DNA of 64,000 nucleotides. Origin: Olivibacter sp. XZL3 (GTDB lineage: Bacteria; Bacteroidota; Bacteroidia; Sphingobacteriales; Sphingobacteriaceae). The notes under the pieces were generated by a model. The model was not told the DNA's origin. It did not search any database and was given only the letters and a program-made list of their open reading frames with translations. Positions 20,680 through 63,333 of the stretch are shown piece by piece (the stretch's first letter is position 1; every line of letters starts with the position of its first letter). A program made the position numbers and the translations under genes. The stretch is from positions 124,001 to 188,000 of the forward strand of contig NZ_SBJH01000042.1 in the NCBI RefSeq assembly GCF_004368405.1. Direction: 5' to 3'.

Positions 20680-20704
20680 TATGCTAATATTTTGGTTAAA
20701 GACG

Positions 20705-20712
20705 CAAAGATA
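20705..20712 (-). promoter_or_regulatory. -7 promoter element of the dhs-like gene
   Basis: TATCTTTG on the minus strand fits TAnnTTTG, about 25 nt before the start codon. I could not find a clear TTG at the expected distance. Confidence 0.45.
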
Positions 20713-20776
20713 GCTATAAAGCGCTAAGCTTTAAAGCGAAAAGATATAAAGGCCTTCCATGCGACTTGAAATTAAC

Positions 20777-20784
20777 TAACTTTG
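20777..20784 (+). promoter_or_regulatory. -7 promoter element, near-leaderless S1/P1 nuclease transcript
   Basis: TAACTTTG ends 4 nt before the ATG at 20789, so transcription would begin at or next to the start codon. No good -33 TTG at 19-22 nt is visible. Confidence 0.5.
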
Positions 20785-20788
20785 CATC

Positions 20789-21583
20789 ATGAAAAAGATT
20801 ACCGCTTTCAACCTGCTAACCGCTTTATTTATTTTTTTAAGCAACTCCGCTTTCGCATGGGGACTTACCGGTCACCGCGTGGTAGCGGAGATAGCCGACC
20901 AACGCCTAACGAAACGGGCAAAAAGAAATATCCAGCAAATTCTGGGAAATGAATCTTTGGCGATGGCCGCTAATTGGCCTGACTTTATAAAATCCGACCC
21001 TTCGTATGCTTATCTCAACAGTTGGCATTACGTGAACTTTAACAGCGGCTTAACGTTTGAACAACTGAAATCACAACTACATCAAGACACTACAGCGAAC
21101 GCTTATAGTAAGTTAATGATGTTGTTCGACCAGCTTAAAAATCGCCAATCATTAGATAAAGCAACTCAAATTATGTATTTGCGACTTGTTATACACCTTG
21201 TTGGCGACATTCACCAACCCATGCACACGGGCCGCTTTGAAGACTTAGGTGGAAACAAGATTAAACTATACTGGTTCAATACGCCTACCAATCTGCATAG
21301 AATATGGGATGAACAACTTATAGACTTCCAACAACTGAGTTTCACCGAATATACCAAAGCGATTAATTTCACGACCCCAAAGCAGCAAGCTGAATGGCAA
21401 GGCACTCCGCTAGAGAAGTGGATGTATGAATCTTATCAAATAAGTGAATCGTTATACGGCGGCGTTCAGCCAGAGGAAAAGCTAAGCTACCGTTACAACT
21501 TCGACCACATCAACACCCTGAATCAGCAGCTTTTAAAAGGAGGGATCCGATTGGCTAAGATACTGAACAACCTGTTCGGCTAG
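20789..21583 (+). CDS. secreted S1/P1-type zinc nuclease
   Basis: Exported single-strand nuclease of 264 residues. The signal peptide ends SAFA, and the predicted mature protein begins with WGLTGH, so the N-terminal Trp can serve as a zinc ligand as in P1 nuclease. Other ligand motifs are NWPDFI, SWHYVNF, HLVGDIHQPMHTGR (three of the ligands), DLGGNKI and NLHRIWDEQLI. The family is periplasmic or extracellular and releases 5'-mononucleotides, plausibly for phosphate or nucleoside scavenging. It is divergent from the dhs-like gene and convergent with 5-formyl-THF cyclo-ligase, the two stop codons sharing CTAG. Confidence 0.95.
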   Translation: MKKITAFNLLTALFIFLSNSAFAWGLTGHRVVAEIADQRLTKRAKRNIQQILGNESLAMAANWPDFIKSDPSYAYLNSWHYVNFNSGLTFEQLKSQLHQDTTANAYSKLMMLFDQLKNRQSLDKATQIMYLRLVIHLVGDIHQPMHTGRFEDLGGNKIKLYWFNTPTNLHRIWDEQLIDFQQLSFTEYTKAINFTTPKQQAEWQGTPLEKWMYESYQISESLYGGVQPEEKLSYRYNFDHINTLNQQLLKGGIRLAKILNNLFG

Positions 21584-22167
21584 CAATTAGCTTCAGAAAA
21601 CACCCAGATTTTTTCGGGCGTTACACAGGTATCCAAAGGAATATCGTGCGGTTCGCTATCAACAATTTTATCGACGGGGTCAAACAGCGAAAGTCCAATC
21701 TTCCGAACGCCGGGTCGACATGCGCTCAAAAAGCGATCGTAGTAGCCTTTACCGTAGCCTACTCTATTGCCTTCCATATCAAAACTTAGCAGAGGCAATA
21801 GTACCGCATCGATTAGCTCTACAGGCACTTCCTGTTCCGGGCCGGCAGGTTCCATGATGTCCCATTTATTTCGGACTAAGGCTTGCTCACCTAAGACGTG
21901 GTGCGTCATTAGATTCGTCGTCAAATCGCTTTTCGGCACAACAATTTTTACATCAGGCCAATGGGTCTTTATGTGTTCAATTAAGAGAAAGGTGTTGGGC
22001 TCCTTCTTGGAAAAGATGGGTAAAAAAGTATGCAGGTAAGCAAGGTTGCTGAATGATAAGGTAGCAAAACGCATTAGCAAACTGGCATTAAGTGCATCAT
22101 ATGCGGTATCCGATAATTGATCACGCAAAAATTTAAATCGTAATCTACTTGCCTGCTTCGTATACAT
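21580..22167 (-). CDS. 5-formyltetrahydrofolate cyclo-ligase
   Basis: ATP-dependent enzyme of 195 residues that converts 5-formyl-THF to 5,10-methenyl-THF. The start at 22167 (MYTKQASRLRFKFLRDQL) gives the usual family beginning; the longer frame from 22209 would run through the efp terminator. Conserved parts are LLPLLSFDMEGNRVGYGKGYYDRFLS and KIGLSLFDPVD near the C-terminus. The stop codon overlaps that of the convergent S1/P1 nuclease in the palindrome CTAG. A -7 box lies 5 nt upstream of the ATG, within the terminator T tract of efp. Confidence 0.93.
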   Translation of the reverse strand: MYTKQASRLRFKFLRDQLSDTAYDALNASLLMRFATLSFSNLAYLHTFLPIFSKKEPNTFLLIEHIKTHWPDVKIVVPKSDLTTNLMTHHVLGEQALVRNKWDIMEPAGPEQEVPVELIDAVLLPLLSFDMEGNRVGYGKGYYDRFLSACRPGVRKIGLSLFDPVDKIVDSEPHDIPLDTCVTPEKIWVFSEANC

Positions 22168-22172
22168 TAACC

Positions 22173-22180
22173 CAAATATA
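22173..22180 (-). promoter_or_regulatory. -7 element for 5-formyl-THF cyclo-ligase inside the efp terminator tail
   Basis: TATATTTG on the minus strand ends 5 nt before the ATG and overlaps the U tract of the efp terminator hairpin. No TTG at 17-23 nt upstream; the nearest is at 26 nt. Confidence 0.4.
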
Positions 22181-24427: not shown

Positions 24428-25840
24428 TTATTGCTCTTTAATTTCTTCTTTTACCTTAACTATCTGCGCCATCAACTCAGCTTCTACCACTATTTTTTCT
24501 CCTACCATACCAACTCCCTTCATTTGAGCGATCCCGCGGCGAATCGGTTGCAATAAACTACAGTGGAAAATAATCGTATCTCCCGGTTTTACCTGTGCTT
24601 TAAACCGGGCGTTCTCAATTTTCAAAAATAACGTTATATAATTTTCGGGATCGGGCACCGTATTTAACACCAGTATCCCGCCGGTTTGAGCCATCGCTTC
24701 GATCTGCAGTACACCGGGAAACAGCGGCTCGTTTGGAAAGTGCCCCATGAATATATCTTCGTTCATGGTTACGTTCTTCAAACCGACCACATGCGTTTTT
24801 GTGAGTTCAAGAATCTTATCAACCATCAGCATGGGCTGCCTATGTGGTAAGATCTTCATTATCTGCGCGGTGTCGTATACCGGCGTCATATTTGGATCGT
24901 AGACCTTGACATATTTTTTGTTCTTTTCTCGGTTTATCTGGGCTTTGATCTTTTTCGCAAAAGCGACGTTCGCCGCGTGCCCGGGCCTGGCCGCCATAAT
25001 ATGGCCTTTCAATGGCCGACCTACTAAAGCGAGATCACCAATCATGTCCAGTAGCTTATGACGAGCAGGCTCATTCTGATGGCGGAGCTTAATATTGTTT
25101 AATATGCCCTCCCTTGCCACGTCAATATCCTCGCGATTAAAAAGCTTTGCTAAATGTTTCAGCTCTTCTTTGTTTACATCCTTATCAACTACAACGATCG
25201 CATTGTTTAAATCGCCCCCCTTTATCAAATTATGCTCCAGTAACATTTCCAATTCATGTAAAAAGCAAAAGGTGCGCGACGAGGCGATTTCCTTTTTAAA
25301 TTCGCTGATGCTTGTAATTGCGGAATGCTGACTGCCTAATACCGGAGAGTTATAATCGATCATACAAGTGAAGCGGTATCCGTCCAATGGCATTGCTACC
25401 ATCTCGACCCTTCTATCTGCCTCCGTGTAGTGTATGTTGTGAGGTATTTCGTAATATTCTCTATCCGCTTCTTGATCTTTGTATCCGGCTTTTTCGATGG
25501 CTTCTACATAAACCAGCGCGCTTCCGTCCATAATCGGCACTTCAGGGCCATCAATTTCTACCAATACATTATCAATCTCCATCCCTACCAAGGAAGCCAA
25601 CAAGTGTTCTACCGTGCTAACACTCGCGCCATTTTGCGTAATAGTTGTTCCCCTTGAGGTGTCTGAAACGTTATCTACATCCGCATCTACGATAGGCTGA
25701 CCTTCTAAATCGACGCGTTTAAATTTATATCCATGATTTACCGGTGCCGGCTTAAAAACTAAAGTAGCGTGCTTACCGGTGTGAAGCCCAACTCCCGAAA
25801 TGGTGATTTCTGAATTAAGTGTTCTCTGTTTGACGTTCAT
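24428..25840 (-). CDS. lpxC-fabZ: bifunctional LpxC deacetylase / FabZ dehydratase
   Basis: Fusion of 470 residues typical of Bacteroidota. Residues of about 1-305 are LpxC, the zinc-dependent deacetylase of lipid A synthesis, with TISGVGLHTGK, TVEHLLASL and the HKLLDMIGDL block carrying a zinc ligand. Residues of about 320-465 are FabZ, the 3-hydroxyacyl-ACP dehydratase, with the active-site segment GHFPNEPLFPGVLQIEAMAQ. The fusion links fatty-acid elongation with the committed lipid A step. It sits between lpxD and lpxA, giving three consecutive pathway steps. Confidence 0.97.
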   Translation of the reverse strand: MNVKQRTLNSEITISGVGLHTGKHATLVFKPAPVNHGYKFKRVDLEGQPIVDADVDNVSDTSRGTTITQNGASVSTVEHLLASLVGMEIDNVLVEIDGPEVPIMDGSALVYVEAIEKAGYKDQEADREYYEIPHNIHYTEADRRVEMVAMPLDGYRFTCMIDYNSPVLGSQHSAITSISEFKKEIASSRTFCFLHELEMLLEHNLIKGGDLNNAIVVVDKDVNKEELKHLAKLFNREDIDVAREGILNNIKLRHQNEPARHKLLDMIGDLALVGRPLKGHIMAARPGHAANVAFAKKIKAQINREKNKKYVKVYDPNMTPVYDTAQIMKILPHRQPMLMVDKILELTKTHVVGLKNVTMNEDIFMGHFPNEPLFPGVLQIEAMAQTGGILVLNTVPDPENYITLFLKIENARFKAQVKPGDTIIFHCSLLQPIRRGIAQMKGVGMVGEKIVVEAELMAQIVKVKEEIKEQ

Positions 25841-25892: not shown

Positions 25893-26930
25893 CTATTTTT
25901 CGTCCGTTTTTTTGATTAGTTTTTCAATTTGATCCAATCGCCGTTCCAAATCGGGTAATCGCTGCAATACTACCTGTGTGCGCATCTGATTTTGGAATTG
26001 GCTTGCCGGTGTTCCCGCCCATTTTAAACCGGGCGACTCTATCGAGCGATTAATACCCGACTGTGCCTGCACTTGACTTCCGTCTGCTATCGTGATATGC
26101 CCTACCGCTCCTACCTGCCCTCCTAAGACTACATTTTTACCGATTTTGGTGCTTCCGGAGATTCCGGTTTGCGCAGCAATAACCGAATTTTCGCCGACCT
26201 CAACGTTATGTGCTAACTGGATCAAGTTATCCAGTTTAACACCTTTTTTAATCGTTGTATGCCCCATCGTAGCGCGATCAATCGTGGAATTGGAACCGAT
26301 TTCCACATCGTCTTCGATGACGACATTACCTATCTGACTGATCTTGCGATAAGTTCCATCCTCCTGAGGAGCGAAGCCAAAGCCGTCGCTCCCTATAACC
26401 GTTCCGGAATGCACCACTACATTTTTTCCCAAAACGCAATCGTGGTATACTTTTACGCCGGGGAACAAAATACTTCCTGCCCCTATCGTTACATTATCAC
26501 CAATGTAGACCTGGGGATAAATACTCACATTATCGCCCAATACGACCTCATTGCCGATATAGGCAAAAGCACCTACGTAAACGTCTTCCCCGAGCTTAGC
26601 GGAGGGGTGAATATACGACGGCGCTTCAATGCCGGTTTTATGGAGCCTGAACTTATTATATTGCTCTAACAATAAAGTAATAGCCGTATAAGCATTCCGT
26701 ACGCGAATAAGCGTGGCGCTCATTGGCTCTTCAACCACCAAGTCGTTATTTACTATGATAATGGATGCTCCGGTAGTATAAAGATAGCTTTCATACTTAG
26801 GGTTGGCTAAAAAAGTAAGTCCCCCTTGACTCGCTTCTTCGATTTTTTCGACCCGTGATACCACCACATCTCCGTCTCCCTCAATCGAACCATCAACGAT
26901 TTCGCTAATTTGTTTTGCAGTAAATTGCAT
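25893..26930 (-). CDS. lpxD: UDP-3-O-(3-hydroxymyristoyl)glucosamine N-acyltransferase
   Basis: Acyltransferase of 345 residues adding the N-linked chain in the third lipid A step. It has the N-terminal uridine-binding domain (FTAKQISEIVDG), followed by a long hexapeptide-repeat beta-helix and a C-terminal helical tail with coiled-coil character. The catalytic His lies in LDNLIQLAHNVEVGENSVIA. It begins a unit with lpxC-fabZ and lpxA. A textbook promoter ends 4 nt before the start codon, so the mRNA is probably leaderless. Confidence 0.96.
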   Translation of the reverse strand: MQFTAKQISEIVDGSIEGDGDVVVSRVEKIEEASQGGLTFLANPKYESYLYTTGASIIIVNNDLVVEEPMSATLIRVRNAYTAITLLLEQYNKFRLHKTGIEAPSYIHPSAKLGEDVYVGAFAYIGNEVVLGDNVSIYPQVYIGDNVTIGAGSILFPGVKVYHDCVLGKNVVVHSGTVIGSDGFGFAPQEDGTYRKISQIGNVVIEDDVEIGSNSTIDRATMGHTTIKKGVKLDNLIQLAHNVEVGENSVIAAQTGISGSTKIGKNVVLGGQVGAVGHITIADGSQVQAQSGINRSIESPGLKWAGTPASQFQNQMRTQVVLQRLPDLERRLDQIEKLIKKTDEK

Positions 26931-26934
26931 CGCG

Positions 26935-26964
26935 CAAATTTATATGTTAAATATTTATGAACAA
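26935..26964 (-). promoter_or_regulatory. lpxD promoter, leaderless geometry
   Basis: Minus-strand TTG (26962-26964), exactly 19 nt, then TAAATTTG (26935-26942), which ends 4 nt before the lpxD ATG. Transcription would start at about the first codon. Confidence 0.8.
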
Positions 26965-30134: not shown

Positions 30135-30165
30135 TTGCATATAAAGGCTACTTTACCTAAGTTTG
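30135..30165 (+). promoter_or_regulatory. tsaE promoter, near-leaderless
   Basis: TTG (30135-30137), 20 nt, then TAAGTTTG (30158-30165), 4 nt from the ATG at 30170. It is a complete promoter match with almost no leader. Confidence 0.75.
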
Positions 30166-30169
30166 CTTC

Positions 30170-30613
30170 ATGATTATTACAGTTGACGATATGCACGAAC
30201 TACCCGAAGCGGCAAGAAAGATACTCCAGTTTATTGCCGACTACCGGGTAGTTTTATTTTTCGCGCCCATGGGTGCGGGAAAGACGACCTTGATCAAAGA
30301 ACTCTGTAGGCAGCTGCAGGTTGTAGACCAAGTTGCCAGTCCCACTTTTTCAATTGTTAACGAATACAGCAGCCCCGATGGAAATGTTTTTCACTTTGAT
30401 TTTTACCGCTTAAAAGAGGAACAGGAGGCACTGGACCTCGGTTATGAAGAATACTTCTATTCGGGCAACTATTGCTTCATTGAGTGGCCTGAAAAAATAC
30501 CGAACCTCTTGCCCGAAGAGGTGATAAGCCTCACGATGACGCTTGGAGAAAATGCGGAACGCAATATAACCGTGCAAAAAGGGCTTCCTGAATCGTATTT
30601 TCCGGCATATTAA
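30170..30613 (+). CDS. tsaE: tRNA threonylcarbamoyladenosine biosynthesis ATPase TsaE
   Basis: Small P-loop ATPase of 147 residues that supports the TsaB/TsaD/TsaE complex making t6A37 in tRNAs. It shows the Walker A MGAGKTTLIKEL, the SPTFSIVNEYSS motif, FHFDFYRLK and FIEWPEKI, all TsaE signatures. The start is fixed by a promoter element 4 nt upstream. The alanine dehydrogenase gene follows on the same strand after 180 bp, an order I recall from other Bacteroidota but with no obvious functional link. Confidence 0.95.
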   Translation: MIITVDDMHELPEAARKILQFIADYRVVLFFAPMGAGKTTLIKELCRQLQVVDQVASPTFSIVNEYSSPDGNVFHFDFYRLKEEQEALDLGYEEYFYSGNYCFIEWPEKIPNLLPEEVISLTMTLGENAERNITVQKGLPESYFPAY

Positions 30614-35700: not shown

Positions 35701-35708
35701 TATCTTTG
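35701..35708 (+). promoter_or_regulatory. -7 element of the SirB1-like gene, leaderless geometry
   Basis: TATCTTTG ends 3 nt before the ATG at 35712. A TTG at 35706 within it could be misread as a start. Confidence 0.5.
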
Positions 35709-35711
35709 TAT

Positions 35712-36566
35712 ATGCTTAATGATAAAGAGATAAATTCCTTAATACATTTACTTGACGACCCAGACGAAGAAGTCTTTCGGCACGTTGAAGAAAAGCTGCT
35801 GACATTGGGGACAGACGTTATTGCGCCTTTGGAAGCTGCTTGGGAAAAATCTTTTGATTCTTTCCTGCAATCGAGGATAGAGAATTTGATTCATAAAATC
35901 CAGTTTGAGCAGGTTTTTAACGAATTGGAGCTATGGTATCTGGGAGGAGGATTTGATTTGTTACAGGGTTTAATTATCGTTAATAAATATCAATACCCGG
36001 ATCTGGAAGAACAAAACATTATCAATCAGGTAGAAGAGATAAAACGAGATGCCTGGTTAGAGATGATGTATAATATGAGTGCTGTTGAAAAGGTGCGCTT
36101 GCTTAACAATGTGTTTTACAACCTGCACGGCTTTAAGGGCAACACCAAAAACTATCACGATCCGCAGAATTCTTACATCGGAAAAGTCCTAGAAACGCGA
36201 AAAGGAAATCCTATTTTATTGGCTACCTTATACAGTATTGTGGCGCAGCGGTTGGACATTCCTGTTTATGGTGTCAATTTACCGCGTCACTTTATTTTGG
36301 CCTACGTAGATGAGCAAACGAAGTCGGAAAAAGGGGACGTTCTCTTTTACATCAATGCTTTTAATAGAGGCCAAATATTTGGTAAGCACGATGTGCTGTC
36401 ATTTTTAAAGCAACTCAACCTTCCTGCCGATGAGCAGTTTTTTCTGCCCTGTGACAACTTAGCGATCGTGAGTCGTGTCTTACGCAATCTTTCGGCTTCT
36501 TATAACCAAGCGGGTAGCTTGGAGAAAGCGGCGGAAATACAACGTTTGCTAAGTGTTTTCGGTTGA
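35712..36566 (+). CDS. SirB1-like transglutaminase-fold protein
   Basis: Cytoplasmic protein of 284 residues in the SirB1/transglutaminase-like family, found in most Gram-negative genomes and of unclear function. It has an N-terminal HEAT-like half (DDPDEEVFRHVEEKLLTLG) and a C-terminal half with FYNLHGFKGNTKNYHDPQNSYI, GNPILLATLYSIVAQRL and VYGVNLPRHFILAY. The expected catalytic Cys of true transglutaminases is not obvious, so enzymatic activity is doubtful. The first ATG lies 3 nt from a -7 box; the TTG at 35706 is not used. Confidence 0.85.
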   Translation: MLNDKEINSLIHLLDDPDEEVFRHVEEKLLTLGTDVIAPLEAAWEKSFDSFLQSRIENLIHKIQFEQVFNELELWYLGGGFDLLQGLIIVNKYQYPDLEEQNIINQVEEIKRDAWLEMMYNMSAVEKVRLLNNVFYNLHGFKGNTKNYHDPQNSYIGKVLETRKGNPILLATLYSIVAQRLDIPVYGVNLPRHFILAYVDEQTKSEKGDVLFYINAFNRGQIFGKHDVLSFLKQLNLPADEQFFLPCDNLAIVSRVLRNLSASYNQAGSLEKAAEIQRLLSVFG

Positions 36567-40848: not shown

Positions 40849-40856
40849 TATCTTTG
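40849..40856 (+). promoter_or_regulatory. -7 element of the methyltransferase gene
   Basis: TATCTTTG ends 7 nt before the ATG at 40864, giving a very short leader. No -33 TTG at the right distance. Confidence 0.45.
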
Positions 40857-40863
40857 CTGCAAT

Positions 40864-41649
40864 ATGGCAAACTACCGCTTTTTCCTTGACTATTTAGCAC
40901 ATAGGCTTTCCGCTAAAACGCGTCATGGTGTGCATTCGCCTTTTGTGTATCAGCTCGTTGATGAGGTAATTTACGATTTTTCACCTAAACCGTACGAAGA
41001 AGAAATCGAAAGGAAGCGGCAAGCGCTACAGAAGGATATGCGGATTATCAAAGTAACCGACTATGGTGCCGGTTCGATGATGAATAATGGAAAACAAAAG
41101 GCCGTAGGCACGATTGCAAAGAACGCCTTGAAGCCAAAACGGGTTGCACAGCTTATTGCTCGATTAGCCAATCGCTTTACTCCAGCAACCATCATAGAAT
41201 TAGGCACCTGTTTAGGAATCACAACGGCCTATCTTGCCAAAGCGGCACCTAAGGCCTCAGTGATCACCGTCGAAGGGTGCCCTGAAACCTCAGCTGTTGC
41301 CAGGCAAACACTCGATGAGCTAGGTGCACCGCATATCACACTAAAAACAGGGAATTTTGACAACATTTTGCCCGAGCTCATCCAGCAGCAAGAAAAAATC
41401 GACTTTCTCTTTTTAGACGGGAATCACCGAAAAGAGGCCACGCTCAATTATTTTTATCTCTGCTTGCCGAAAGTACATGCACAGAGCCTGCTTATTTTCG
41501 ATGATATTTATTGGAGTAAGGGCATGAAAGAGGCTTGGCAGGAAATCAAAAACCACCCCCAGGTGACCTTAACGATTGACTTATTTTTCATAGGCCTCGT
41601 CTTCTTTAAAAAAGGTCAGGAAAAAGAGCATTTTAAAATAAGGTATTAG
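40864..41649 (+). CDS. class I SAM-dependent methyltransferase
   Basis: Protein of 261 residues with a Rossmann methyltransferase core: motif I IIELGTCLGITTAYLAK (about 115-131), motif II VITVEGCPETSAVARQ, and the motif IV-like DFLFLDGNHRKEAT. These match the O-methyltransferase-like proteins of Bacteroidota. An N-terminal region of about 100 residues (FLDYLAHRLSAKTRHGVHSPFVYQ) precedes the core. The substrate is unknown. It stands alone, with 230 bp of unassigned sequence after it. Confidence 0.8.
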   Translation: MANYRFFLDYLAHRLSAKTRHGVHSPFVYQLVDEVIYDFSPKPYEEEIERKRQALQKDMRIIKVTDYGAGSMMNNGKQKAVGTIAKNALKPKRVAQLIARLANRFTPATIIELGTCLGITTAYLAKAAPKASVITVEGCPETSAVARQTLDELGAPHITLKTGNFDNILPELIQQQEKIDFLFLDGNHRKEATLNYFYLCLPKVHAQSLLIFDDIYWSKGMKEAWQEIKNHPQVTLTIDLFFIGLVFFKKGQEKEHFKIRY

Positions 41650-53917: not shown

Positions 53918-54793
53918 CTATAAAATATTCAATAACTGTTCTTTGATTTTTTCCAATTCTTCCTTCATCTGAACAACGGTCTGCTGGATTTGGGCATTGT
54001 TGGCCTTCGAACCGAGGGTATTGATCTCCCGGCCCATCTCTTGTGAGATAAATCCTAATTTTTTCCCATTAGCATCCGGTGCTGTCAAAATCTTTGCGAA
54101 ATACTCGCAGTGACTTCTCAAACGCACCTTCTCTTCCGTGATATCCAACTTATCGATGTAATATATCAATTCTTGTTCAAAGCGGTTTTTATCAATATTT
54201 TCTCCCCCAACTGCTTCCACCATATAATTACTGATCCGTTCTCTGATCAAGGGAATACGTGAGGTCTCCTGTTTTTCTACGGCCGACAAAAGGTCTAAAA
54301 TCGTTTGATTTCTTTTAAAGAGGTCGTCCTTAAGCACCTGGCCTTCGTCTGAACGAAATTGTTGAAACTTTTCCAATGCCAAATAAAACGTATCCAGTAA
54401 ATCCTGCCATTCTTCCTCATCAGCAGCTTCTTCCGAATAGCTGATTACTTCCGGTAGATTAAGTGCTAATTCGAATATATTCTCCGTAGGATCATTTAAT
54501 TCTTTGGCGATGGCCTTTAACTGGGCATAATAATTTTTAAGCAAGCTGCCATCGATCGTTGCCGCCTTCGCCGAGGCGTCCGCGTATTCAACGTTGACCG
54601 TAATATTTACCTTACCTCGTTCAATGAGCTTTGTACACTCATTTCGGAGGAAAAGTTCTTTTTCTGAGAAAGTCTTCGGCATTTTCAGATTAAGCTCCAA
54701 ATATTTAGAGTTTAGCGACTTGATTTCTACTGTATATTTCGCTTTGGCACTTTCTTTGGTCCCTAAACCAAATCCGGTCATTGATTTTATCAT
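53918..54793 (-). CDS. yicC: YicC-family endoribonuclease
   Basis: Protein of 291 residues of the YicC/YloC family; the E. coli member has been described as an endoribonuclease. The start is the ATG at 54793, giving MIKSMTGFG, the invariant beginning of the family; the TTG at 54799 is part of a promoter box. The C-terminus has the LGFISQEMGREINTLGSKANN signature, split here as LGFISQEMGREI and NTLGSKANN. It leads gmk and nadD. The -7 box TAAGTTTG (54797-54804) ends 3 nt before the ATG. Confidence 0.93.
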   Translation of the reverse strand: MIKSMTGFGLGTKESAKAKYTVEIKSLNSKYLELNLKMPKTFSEKELFLRNECTKLIERGKVNITVNVEYADASAKAATIDGSLLKNYYAQLKAIAKELNDPTENIFELALNLPEVISYSEEAADEEEWQDLLDTFYLALEKFQQFRSDEGQVLKDDLFKRNQTILDLLSAVEKQETSRIPLIRERISNYMVEAVGGENIDKNRFEQELIYYIDKLDITEEKVRLRSHCEYFAKILTAPDANGKKLGFISQEMGREINTLGSKANNAQIQQTVVQMKEELEKIKEQLLNIL

Positions 54794-54796
54794 ATG

Positions 54797-54804
54797 CAAA
54801 CTTA
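54797..54804 (-). promoter_or_regulatory. yicC -7 element, leaderless geometry
   Basis: TAAGTTTG on the minus strand ends 3 nt before the ATG, so the operon mRNA would begin at about the start codon. A good -33 TTG is absent. Confidence 0.5.
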
Positions 54805-61680: not shown

Positions 61681-63093
61681 CTACAGCTCCTCGGCCAACG
61701 TTAACGCTTTCCTCAAAGCAGCTATTTTATTATTAACTTCATTTAATTCGCCTTCGGCTGAAGAGCCCGCCACAACACCGCCTCCAGCCTGATAATGCAA
61801 TCGATTATTCTTGCTCAGAAAAGTCCGGATCATAATCGCATGGTTGAAGTCGCCATCGAAGCCCATATAACCAATGGCCCCACTGTAAAAACCACGTTGC
61901 TGTTGTTCATACCTATCTATCAATTGCATGGCCATATGCTTCGGCGCGCCGCTCAAGGTACCGGCAGGAAAAGTATCTCCCACCACATCAAAGGGATTAG
62001 CACCCTCCTGCAAAGTACCACTCACCTTAGAAACCAAGTGGATTACATGCGAATAAAACTGGGCCTCTTTAAACGATTTGACCTCCACATCCACACAATG
62101 CCGACTCAAATCGTTTCTTGCCAAATCGACCAACATCACATGCTCAGCACTTTCTTTAGGATCATTTTTTAGCGCCTCTGCCACACGCAAATCCTCTGCC
62201 GTATTTCCTGTTCTTTTGAAAGTACCCGCTATCGGATATATGGATGCTTCTTTTCCCTTGATGGTCAATTGCGCTTCGGGTGACGAACCGAATAATTTAA
62301 AATTACCATAGTCGAAATAAAACAGATAGGGAGACGGGTTCACCGACCGTAAGCTTCGGTAAACGTTAAATTCGTCCCCTAAAAATGGACGGCTAAACGC
62401 TCGGGAAGGAACGATCTGAAAAACATCTCCTCTAAAAATGTGTTCCTTCGTTTTCTCCACCAAGGCTTTATAGCCTTCATCGGTTTTATTCGAGCTTTCG
62501 TCGCCATTCAGTTCAAATTTATACTCAGGGAAATTTTTGTTTTGTATAAGGTACTGAATCTTGCTCAACCCATCCTCCTCAGGCTCACCACAATAGTGCT
62601 CAAACACATAAAGCTCATTACGAAAGTGATCAATGGCAATTACATAGCGATAGACATGATACTGCAGAAAAGGAATATTCCGCGCCTCGTCTACGGGCGT
62701 TTCCAAGGTTATATCTTCAAAATGAGCTACGGTATCAAAAGTGAAATACCCGAATAGTCCGTTCGTGATAAACTTAAACTCCTCCGGTTTATCGGCCTTA
62801 AAAGACTGACGGAATTGGGACACTTCCTCTCTTAAATTTATACTATCGGCGGGTTTACTGGATTTTTGTCCATCAGGAAAATACACTTCCAGTTGATTTT
62901 CGTTGAGACTGATCCCCGCAATAGGCGAACAACAAACATAACTCATACTATTTTCGCGACTATGGTAATCAGAACTCTCCAACAGCAGACTATTCGGAAA
63001 CACATCCCTTAATCTTAAATATATACTAACCGGCGTGGTTGTGTCTGCCAATAATTTTTTAAATCTCGTTCGTAATTGATATGTGTCCGTCAT
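61681..63093 (-). CDS. trpE: anthranilate synthase component I
   Basis: Chorismate-utilising enzyme of 470 residues making anthranilate. The Trp feedback motif LLLESSD (around 35-41) is present, so allosteric inhibition by Trp is likely. The catalytic half carries [48 protein letters not shown] and [13 protein letters not shown]. It is the first structural gene of the operon, and its start lies 33 nt after an attenuator terminator. Confidence 0.97.
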
Positions 63094-63125: not shown

Positions 63126-63155
63126 AAAAAAACCCGACGTTATGCGCGTCGGGTT
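63126..63155 (-). terminator. trp attenuator terminator
   Basis: Minus-strand stem AACCCGACG/CGTCGGGTT (63155-63147 and 63139-63131) with a 7-nt loop, followed by seven U (63132-63126). It lies after the leader peptide stop and before trpE. Confidence 0.93.
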
Positions 63156-63224
63156 ATAAGTTTAAGGCTTTGGTTGATCAATCTATGCCATTATATGTGC
63201 TCCCGGCGCTGTTCTTAACAGGCC
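63147..63224 (-). promoter_or_regulatory. trp leader alternative RNA structures (1:2 and 2:3 pairings)
   Basis: Segment 1, GGCCTGTT (63224-63217), can pair with segment 2, AACAGCGCC (63213-63205), with one bulge. Segment 2 in GCGCCGGG (63209-63202) can instead pair with segment 3, CCCGACGC (63153-63146), with one mismatch. That removes the 5' arm of the terminator. Segment 1 overlaps the last Trp codon, so a stalled ribosome would favour the antiterminator. Confidence 0.75.
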
Positions 63225-63258
63225 ACCACCAGTTGCGTATAGTAGTATTGATCGTCAT
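63178..63258 (-). CDS. trpL: trp operon leader peptide
   Basis: Reading frame of 26 codons (ATG at 63258, TGA at 63178-63180) containing three consecutive Trp codons (63231-63223) in IRNWWWPVKN. It sits right after a consensus promoter, about 7 nt from the -7 box. It also precedes a terminator and trpE at classic spacing. This identifies it as the control peptide of a ribosome-mediated attenuator: with scarce charged tRNA-Trp, ribosomes stall at the WWW codons and transcription continues. Confidence 0.9.
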   Translation of the reverse strand: MTINTTIRNWWWPVKNSAGSTYNGID

Positions 63259-63265
63259 GATGAAG

Positions 63266-63295
63266 CAAACCTAATATAAAATTTTAATATTTCAA
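63266..63295 (-). promoter_or_regulatory. trp operon promoter
   Basis: Minus-strand TTG (63293-63295), exactly 19 nt, then TAGGTTTG (63266-63273), 7 nt before the leader ATG. It is a complete Bacteroidota promoter match. Confidence 0.85.
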
Positions 63296-63333
63296 ATTTT
63301 TATTCCAAAGTTAACACAAAATCAGTCAAGCGC

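Follow-up and report, generated by a model that had tools for sequence, protein, structure and literature searches.

Start-codon-adjacent housekeeping promoter boxes and predicted leaderless mRNAs in Olivibacter sp. XZL3 and other Bacteroidia

Introduction

In front of lpxD in Olivibacter sp. XZL3, the -7 box of a putative promoter ends four bases before the ATG, and seven other genes in the 64,000-nt stretch of DNA analyzed here (contig NZ_SBJH01000042.1, positions 124,001-188,000; hereafter the window) carry such a box at a distance of 3 to 7 bases. This raises the question of whether the mRNAs of these genes begin at the AUG or so close to it that they are in effect leaderless, and how widespread this layout is in the genome and in the Bacteroidia. 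Bacteroidota retain an anti-Shine-Dalgarno sequence without using it.

The transcriptomes of three model species treat leaderless mRNAs as a minor class: 5.5% leaderless mRNAs in Flavobacterium psychrophilum (PMC9723704), about 3.7% with a 5' UTR under 10 nt in Bacteroides thetaiotaomicron (PMC7366714), and 13% with a leader of ≤10 nt in F. johnsoniae (PMC6847099). According to a survey of 953 bacterial genomes, which considered Pribnow-like boxes only, leaderless genes occur in 1 out of 37 Bacteroidetes/Chlorobi genomes, and its authors judged it unlikely that large leaderless classes had been missed (PMC3160421). StartLink assigns AT-rich non-canonical RBSs to the FCB group, and one sentence in PMC5397173 states that Bacteroidetes have been reported with many leaderless mRNAs. 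Our literature search, which covered the subscription literature in part, found no report of a leaderless-dominated Bacteroidota lineage.

Materials and Methods

The distance k is the number of bases from the last G of the -7 box to the ATG. The assembly (GCF_004368405.1) comprises 5,364,661 bases in 122 contigs, and the genome sample consisted of the window and 40 stretches of 20 kb (0.86 Mb in total; 719 usable genes). Genes were called with a simple, own-written and promoter-blind caller, dropping those cut at the 5' end or lying <150 nt from the end of a stretch. Upstream regions were dinucleotide-shuffled 300 times for the window and 100 times for the genome sample. The pattern TAHHTTTG-N4-ATG was counted genome-wide in 197 Bacteroidia genomes with the reversed pattern as control; N12 and N22 spacings were counted as further controls in 12 genomes. 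Assignment of lpxD loci to the Sphingobacteriales (51 of 80) was by record title. Families, genomes and loci are labeled f, G, and L.

Results

The original prediction had named eight -7 boxes next to start codons, and all eight were recovered at those coordinates; each conforms to the Bacteroidota sigma-A -7 box, TAnnTTTG. Its three full TTG-N19/20-TAnnTTTG matches are likewise exact, so that a -33 TTG at N19/20 is present for three of the eight boxes. These are the promoters of lpxD (26935..26964, - strand; TTG-N19-TAAATTTG; box 26935-26942, k=4; ATG 26928-26930), tsaE (30135..30165, + strand; TTG-N20-TAAGTTTG; box 30158-30165, k=4; ATG at 30170) and the trp leader peptide trpL (63266..63295, - strand; TTG-N19-TAGGTTTG; box 63266-63273, k=7; ATG at 63258). 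The predicted leaderless lpxD gene (25893..26930, - strand; 345 aa; Pfam LpxD, 1.4e-21) is followed by an lpxC-fabZ fusion (24428-25840; LpxC, 3e-92, with a FabA-like domain), and tsaE (30170..30613, + strand) encodes 147 aa (Pfam TsaE, 7.8e-37). Four of the remaining boxes precede genes identified by Pfam as an S1/P1 nuclease (box TAACTTTG, 20777..20784, + strand, k=4; gene 20789-21583), a 5-formyl-THF cyclo-ligase (box TATATTTG, 22173..22180, - strand, k=5; gene 21580-22167), a SirB1-like protein (Transglut_core2; box TATCTTTG, 35701..35708, + strand, k=3; gene 35712-36566) and a methyltransferase (again TATCTTTG, 40849..40856, + strand, k=7; gene 40864-41649). The last precedes yicC (box TAAGTTTG, 54797..54804, - strand, k=3; gene 53918-54793; Pfam YicC). 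Within 20680-20788, a further TAnnTTTG box on the - strand (20705-20712) diverges from the nuclease promoter, and the sequence in between looks self-complementary.

Where transcription would begin can be estimated from published spacings. In F. johnsoniae, the -7 box and the start site are separated by 4 or 5 nt in many sequences (PMC6847099), and in F. psychrophilum the -7 box lies at -12 to -5 (PMC9723704). This distance would therefore put the +1 of genes with k=4 on the A of the AUG. Genes with k=7 would have a leader of about 3 nt, and those with k=3 would need a box-to-+1 spacing one base shorter, the exact +1 being uncertain by a few nucleotides in both cases; were the spacing strictly 4 nt, the +1 of the k=3 genes (yicC, SirB1-like) would fall on the U of the AUG. 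We infer the actual 5' ends and the mode of translation in this way, the RNA start at the AUG being taken from the published spacing.

The simplest alternative is that these boxes are chance matches in AT-rich intergenic DNA. Over the whole window, the enrichment of TAnnTTTG is indeed no more than mild (82 occurrences vs. 63.6 expected; 2 of 100 shuffles were as high), and full TTG matches also occur elsewhere in the window, which holds six with N19 (1.44 expected) and two with N20 (1.35 expected). A full TTG match alone is weak evidence, because the three promoters make up three of these eight window matches. However, at k=3-8 the box precedes 6 out of 56 called genes in the window, as opposed to 0.24 in the shuffles (largest of 300: 3), a count that leaves out yicC, whose start the caller placed 12 nt downstream, as well as trpL, an ORF too short for the caller. 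The scan of TAnnTTTG 3-8 nt before starts that had been proposed as a check gave the same outcome for the 0.86-Mb genome sample, with 20 out of 719 genes against a shuffle mean of 3.0 (largest of 100: 9). Together with the conservation described below, this refutes chance for the class, and we regard it as a negligible explanation of the whole, although tsaE and similar individual cases may be chance matches. The signal is the position beside the start codon, not the frequency of the box.

The distances of the nearest box to the 719 starts fall into two groups: 20 genes have it at k=3-8 and 67 at k=16-40, with 7 in between (k=9-15). Counted by any box the numbers are 20, 7, and 70, as compared to shuffle means of 3.0, 3.7, and 11.7, and this dip at 9-15 nt sets the leaderless-type promoters apart from leadered promoters as a class of their own. 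The predicted leaderless class amounts to about 2.8% of the called genes (20/719); among boxes up to 40 nt from the start, approximately one fifth of the excess belongs to it, as do 20 of the 130 nearest boxes within 90 nt, so that the leaderless layout would account for about 15-20% of the recognizable promoters in Olivibacter sp. XZL3. The window is richer than the remaining sample (6 out of 56 vs. 14 out of 663 genes; Fisher p = 0.003), and the sample on which the original prediction was based therefore overstates the genome. Its suggestion that leaderless mRNAs are common in this organism holds as far as the excess, the separate class, and the fixed spacing in lpxD and yicC are concerned, but not as to extent, given the 2.8% of genes and the unusual richness of the window.

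The spacing in front of lpxD was compared at 80 loci; the closest named LpxD is that of Olivibacter domesticus (84% identity). The box occurs at k=4 in 39 of them, at k=3 in 7, and at k=7 in 1, all within k=3-7 and comprising 47 of the 51 Sphingobacteriales loci, whereas it was not found at k=3-7 in any of the 29 other loci (Chitinophagales, Bacteroidales, unclassified). These counts are not independent, because the Sphingobacteriales loci are related and centered on one locus. The distance to the ATG is constant while the intervening bases differ between loci: among start-aligned ortholog groups, the 47 lpxD sequences show 3 distinct spacings, vs. 19 in 46 for a leadered neighbor that resembles EF-P, recognized by its N-terminus and presumably elongation factor P. 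For yicC, the 22 loci of the own family have k=3 in 18, k=4 in 1, k=5 in 1, and no box in 2, i.e., k=3-5 in 20 out of 22 genomes even though the flanks have diverged; one of 8 loci from other families has a box at k=5. For lpxC, which follows lpxD in the operon, visual inspection of the listed loci showed no box at k=3-8. The box-to-start arrangement of lpxD and yicC is thus inherited.

These alignments also bear on whether the start codons are misplaced, with true starts further downstream and hence ordinary leaders. Start prediction is error-prone, and our own caller put yicC 12 nt downstream of the ATG supported by homology. However, the N-termini of LpxD and YicC align from residue 1 across relatives, an alternative in-frame ATG within the next 9 codons exists in only 2 of the 20 leaderless genes of the own sample, and clustering at k=3-8 would not be expected for chance boxes. 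Misplaced starts are, therefore, a very unlikely explanation. Every leaderless gene starts with ATG in the own sample (20) and in the Sphingobacteriales set (95), and GTG occurs in the genomes of families f42 and f39. For the own sample the result lacks significance, because ATG makes up 671 of the 719 starts overall.

More serious is the possibility that the promoters are real but that most protein is made from longer mRNAs, produced by read-through or from upstream promoters, with the leaderless form as a minor isoform. A same-strand ORF ends 76 nt upstream of lpxD and so a leadered lpxD mRNA may arise by read-through, and a second TAnnTTTG lies 47 nt upstream of trpL (63306-63313). Fixed spacing would, however, be needless if the adjacent promoter mattered little, leaderless boxes are also found with upstream gaps of hundreds of nucleotides, and in L159, the nearest relative, the second trpL box is not intact, for which reason we rejected it as a promoter. 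We consider a minor leaderless isoform unlikely, albeit the strongest of the competing explanations.

The layout of trpL resembles a regulatory leader. The peptide (MTINTTIRNWWWPVKNSAGSTYNGID; 63178..63258, - strand) has 26 residues with three tandem Trp codons (WWW) and lies 165 nt upstream of trpE (61681-63093, - strand; Pfam), as expected for the short tandem-Trp ORF of a trp attenuator. Between the two, an MFE fold gives an intrinsic terminator, consisting of a hairpin (CCCGACG) followed by T7 (63126..63153, - strand; z -3.4). The region 63126-63295 (- strand) is therefore predicted to be a complete trp attenuator. A script found a WW-containing short ORF before trpE in 21 out of 30 loci, of which at least one (L173) looks false. 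A box at k=4-8 is present in 13 of the 30 trpE upstream loci, and a few more have boxes that are off by one base. The -7 box of trpL contains TAGG, whereas hardly any sequence of the F. johnsoniae set has a G at -10/-9 (PMC6847099). This G-containing box (TAGGTTTG) is kept in 4 out of 5 loci of the own genus. In Sinorhizobium meliloti, the trpL RNA similarly begins with the ATG of the leader peptide (PMC7298713), which is followed by an attenuator, but phylum, promoter, and peptide differ, and in Olivibacter sp. XZL3 3 nt may precede the AUG. The trpE homolog at L184 (genome G011) has in-frame stops and gives a split match. In the same genome yicC is also split in two, and sequencing errors or decay are therefore possible for G011.

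Conservation of the other window genes is less uniform. A box at k=3-8 occurs in 17 out of 47 start-aligned orthologs of tsaE and in 11 out of 38 of the cyclo-ligase, and O. domesticus, the closest named relative, has no such box at either gene. It keeps the box at the nuclease (k=3; L001), the SirB1-like gene (k=3), and the methyltransferase (k=4). Both lpxD and tsaE are generally regarded as essential. The proposed inclusion of essential genes in the class is consequently borne out for both in so far as they carry the box.

TAnnTTTG before an ATG could also be a translational, Kozak-like signal and no promoter at all. Initiation in Bacteroidota does use upstream base preferences (PMC6847099), but the published preference is for A, not TTTG (PMC10783764), and TAnnTTTG also peaks at 16-40 nt before starts. 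Moreover, in Sphingobacteriales a TTG at N17-23 accompanies 53 out of 95 leaderless boxes vs. 33 out of 108 leadered and 5 out of 56 distant ones. A purely translational role is thus highly improbable. As a discriminator of leaderless genes the -33 element gives a mixed picture: it works in the Sphingobacteriales set, is weak in the own sample (8 out of 20 leaderless vs. 20 out of 77 leadered and 9 out of 41 distant boxes), and fails in the f42 genome (9 out of 44). A pyrimidine at -1 was likewise discarded as independent proof of a +1 on the A of the AUG, since leadered genes show it equally.

Across the Bacteroidia, TAHHTTTG-N4-ATG exceeds the reversed pattern in 190 out of 197 genomes (15,053 vs. 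7,074 in total; median excess 10 per Mb). It reaches 64-93 per Mb in family f39 (3 genomes) and 62-78 in f42 (6 genomes), and averages 9.5 in the own family, f1 (7 genomes), 1.1 in f40 (6), and 0.2 in f4 (4). Counts at N4, N12, and N22 are 190, 21, and 20 in G113 (f42), 317, 111, and 92 in G074 (f39), and 76, 65, and 51 in the weak case of G000. In a 220-kb sample of G113, 44 out of 179 genes have a box at k=3-8 (shuffle mean 0.36), with k being exactly 4 in 23 of these, and boxes at 16-40 precede only 8; in 274 kb of G074 the corresponding numbers are 42 out of 203 genes (shuffle mean 1.4) and 31. None of the 46 starts called in 60 kb of G075 (f40; L149-L151) has a TAnnTTTG at 40 nt or less, and genome-wide G075 has no TAHHTTTG excess at N4; in family f40, housekeeping promoters may carry another box, or leaders may be longer. 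Judged by these patterns, the case for leaderless transcription appears far stronger elsewhere in the Bacteroidia than in Olivibacter sp. XZL3, and it seems reasonably likely that its share varies from almost none to predominance, with +1 on the AUG for most genes that have a recognizable sigma-A promoter in f42 and, less so, in f39.

Discussion

The window boxes are very probably ordinary housekeeping-sigma promoters placed such that the mRNAs of lpxD, yicC, trpL, and other genes are leaderless or nearly so. This reading accounts for what is observed in the DNA: a conserved box, present in excess and at a characteristic spacing, and distances that fall into two classes. The Bacteroidota housekeeping-sigma promoter (-33 TTTG, -7 TAnnTTTG) would set the +1 on, or within ~4 nt of, the AUG, and with such a +1 the mRNAs of lpxD, yicC, and the trp leader peptide would be leaderless or almost so. 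Recognition of a 5'-terminal AUG together with initiator tRNA is a known way of starting translation. The ribosome would most likely recognize the 5'-terminal AUG directly through the initiator tRNA that it carries, needing no landing site upstream, and this may constitute a second route alongside the A-rich leaders of most genes in the phylum. Leaderless initiation of this type is summarized in PMC10783764.

These promoters share the -7 box of the Bacteroidota sigma-A (sigma-ABfr) promoter and, for three genes, the -33 TTG at N19/20, but differ from the usual form in that the box abuts the start codon. Leaderless mRNAs of Actinobacteria, Deinococcus-Thermus, and archaea likewise form a genome-wide class in which promoter box and start codon are fused (PMC3160421), although the promoter box is a different one here. 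Compared with the minor leaderless fractions in Flavobacterium and Bacteroides, phylum and box are the same, but the share is predicted, by sequence and not RNA, to be ~15-20% here and a large majority in one f42 genome. One box with a range from almost no leaderless genes to a clear majority offers a natural series for testing what ribosomes need in leaderless translation, and lpxD and the trp attenuator peptide, with their conserved predicted leaderless transcription, are two concrete test genes. There would also be consequences for gene-start prediction and the design of expression vectors in Bacteroidota.

Abandoning Shine-Dalgarno pairing may have freed the f42 and f39 lineages to drop leaders. 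Loss of the anti-Shine-Dalgarno sequence as the cause in f42 is ruled out for G113, the one genome checked, of which the 16S tail (GGATTACCTCCTTTC) keeps CCTCC intact; the same holds for G000. A search for the 16S end in f39 found none. The GC content is 0.55 in the one f42 genome measured, and among the rows listed in a comparison with plasmid records, the f42 16S had distant matches only, at 70-74%. In genome G044 (f9; L154), the 16S tail (GGAACATCTCCTTTT) has CATCTCC in place of TACCTCC, i.e., a changed anti-Shine-Dalgarno core.
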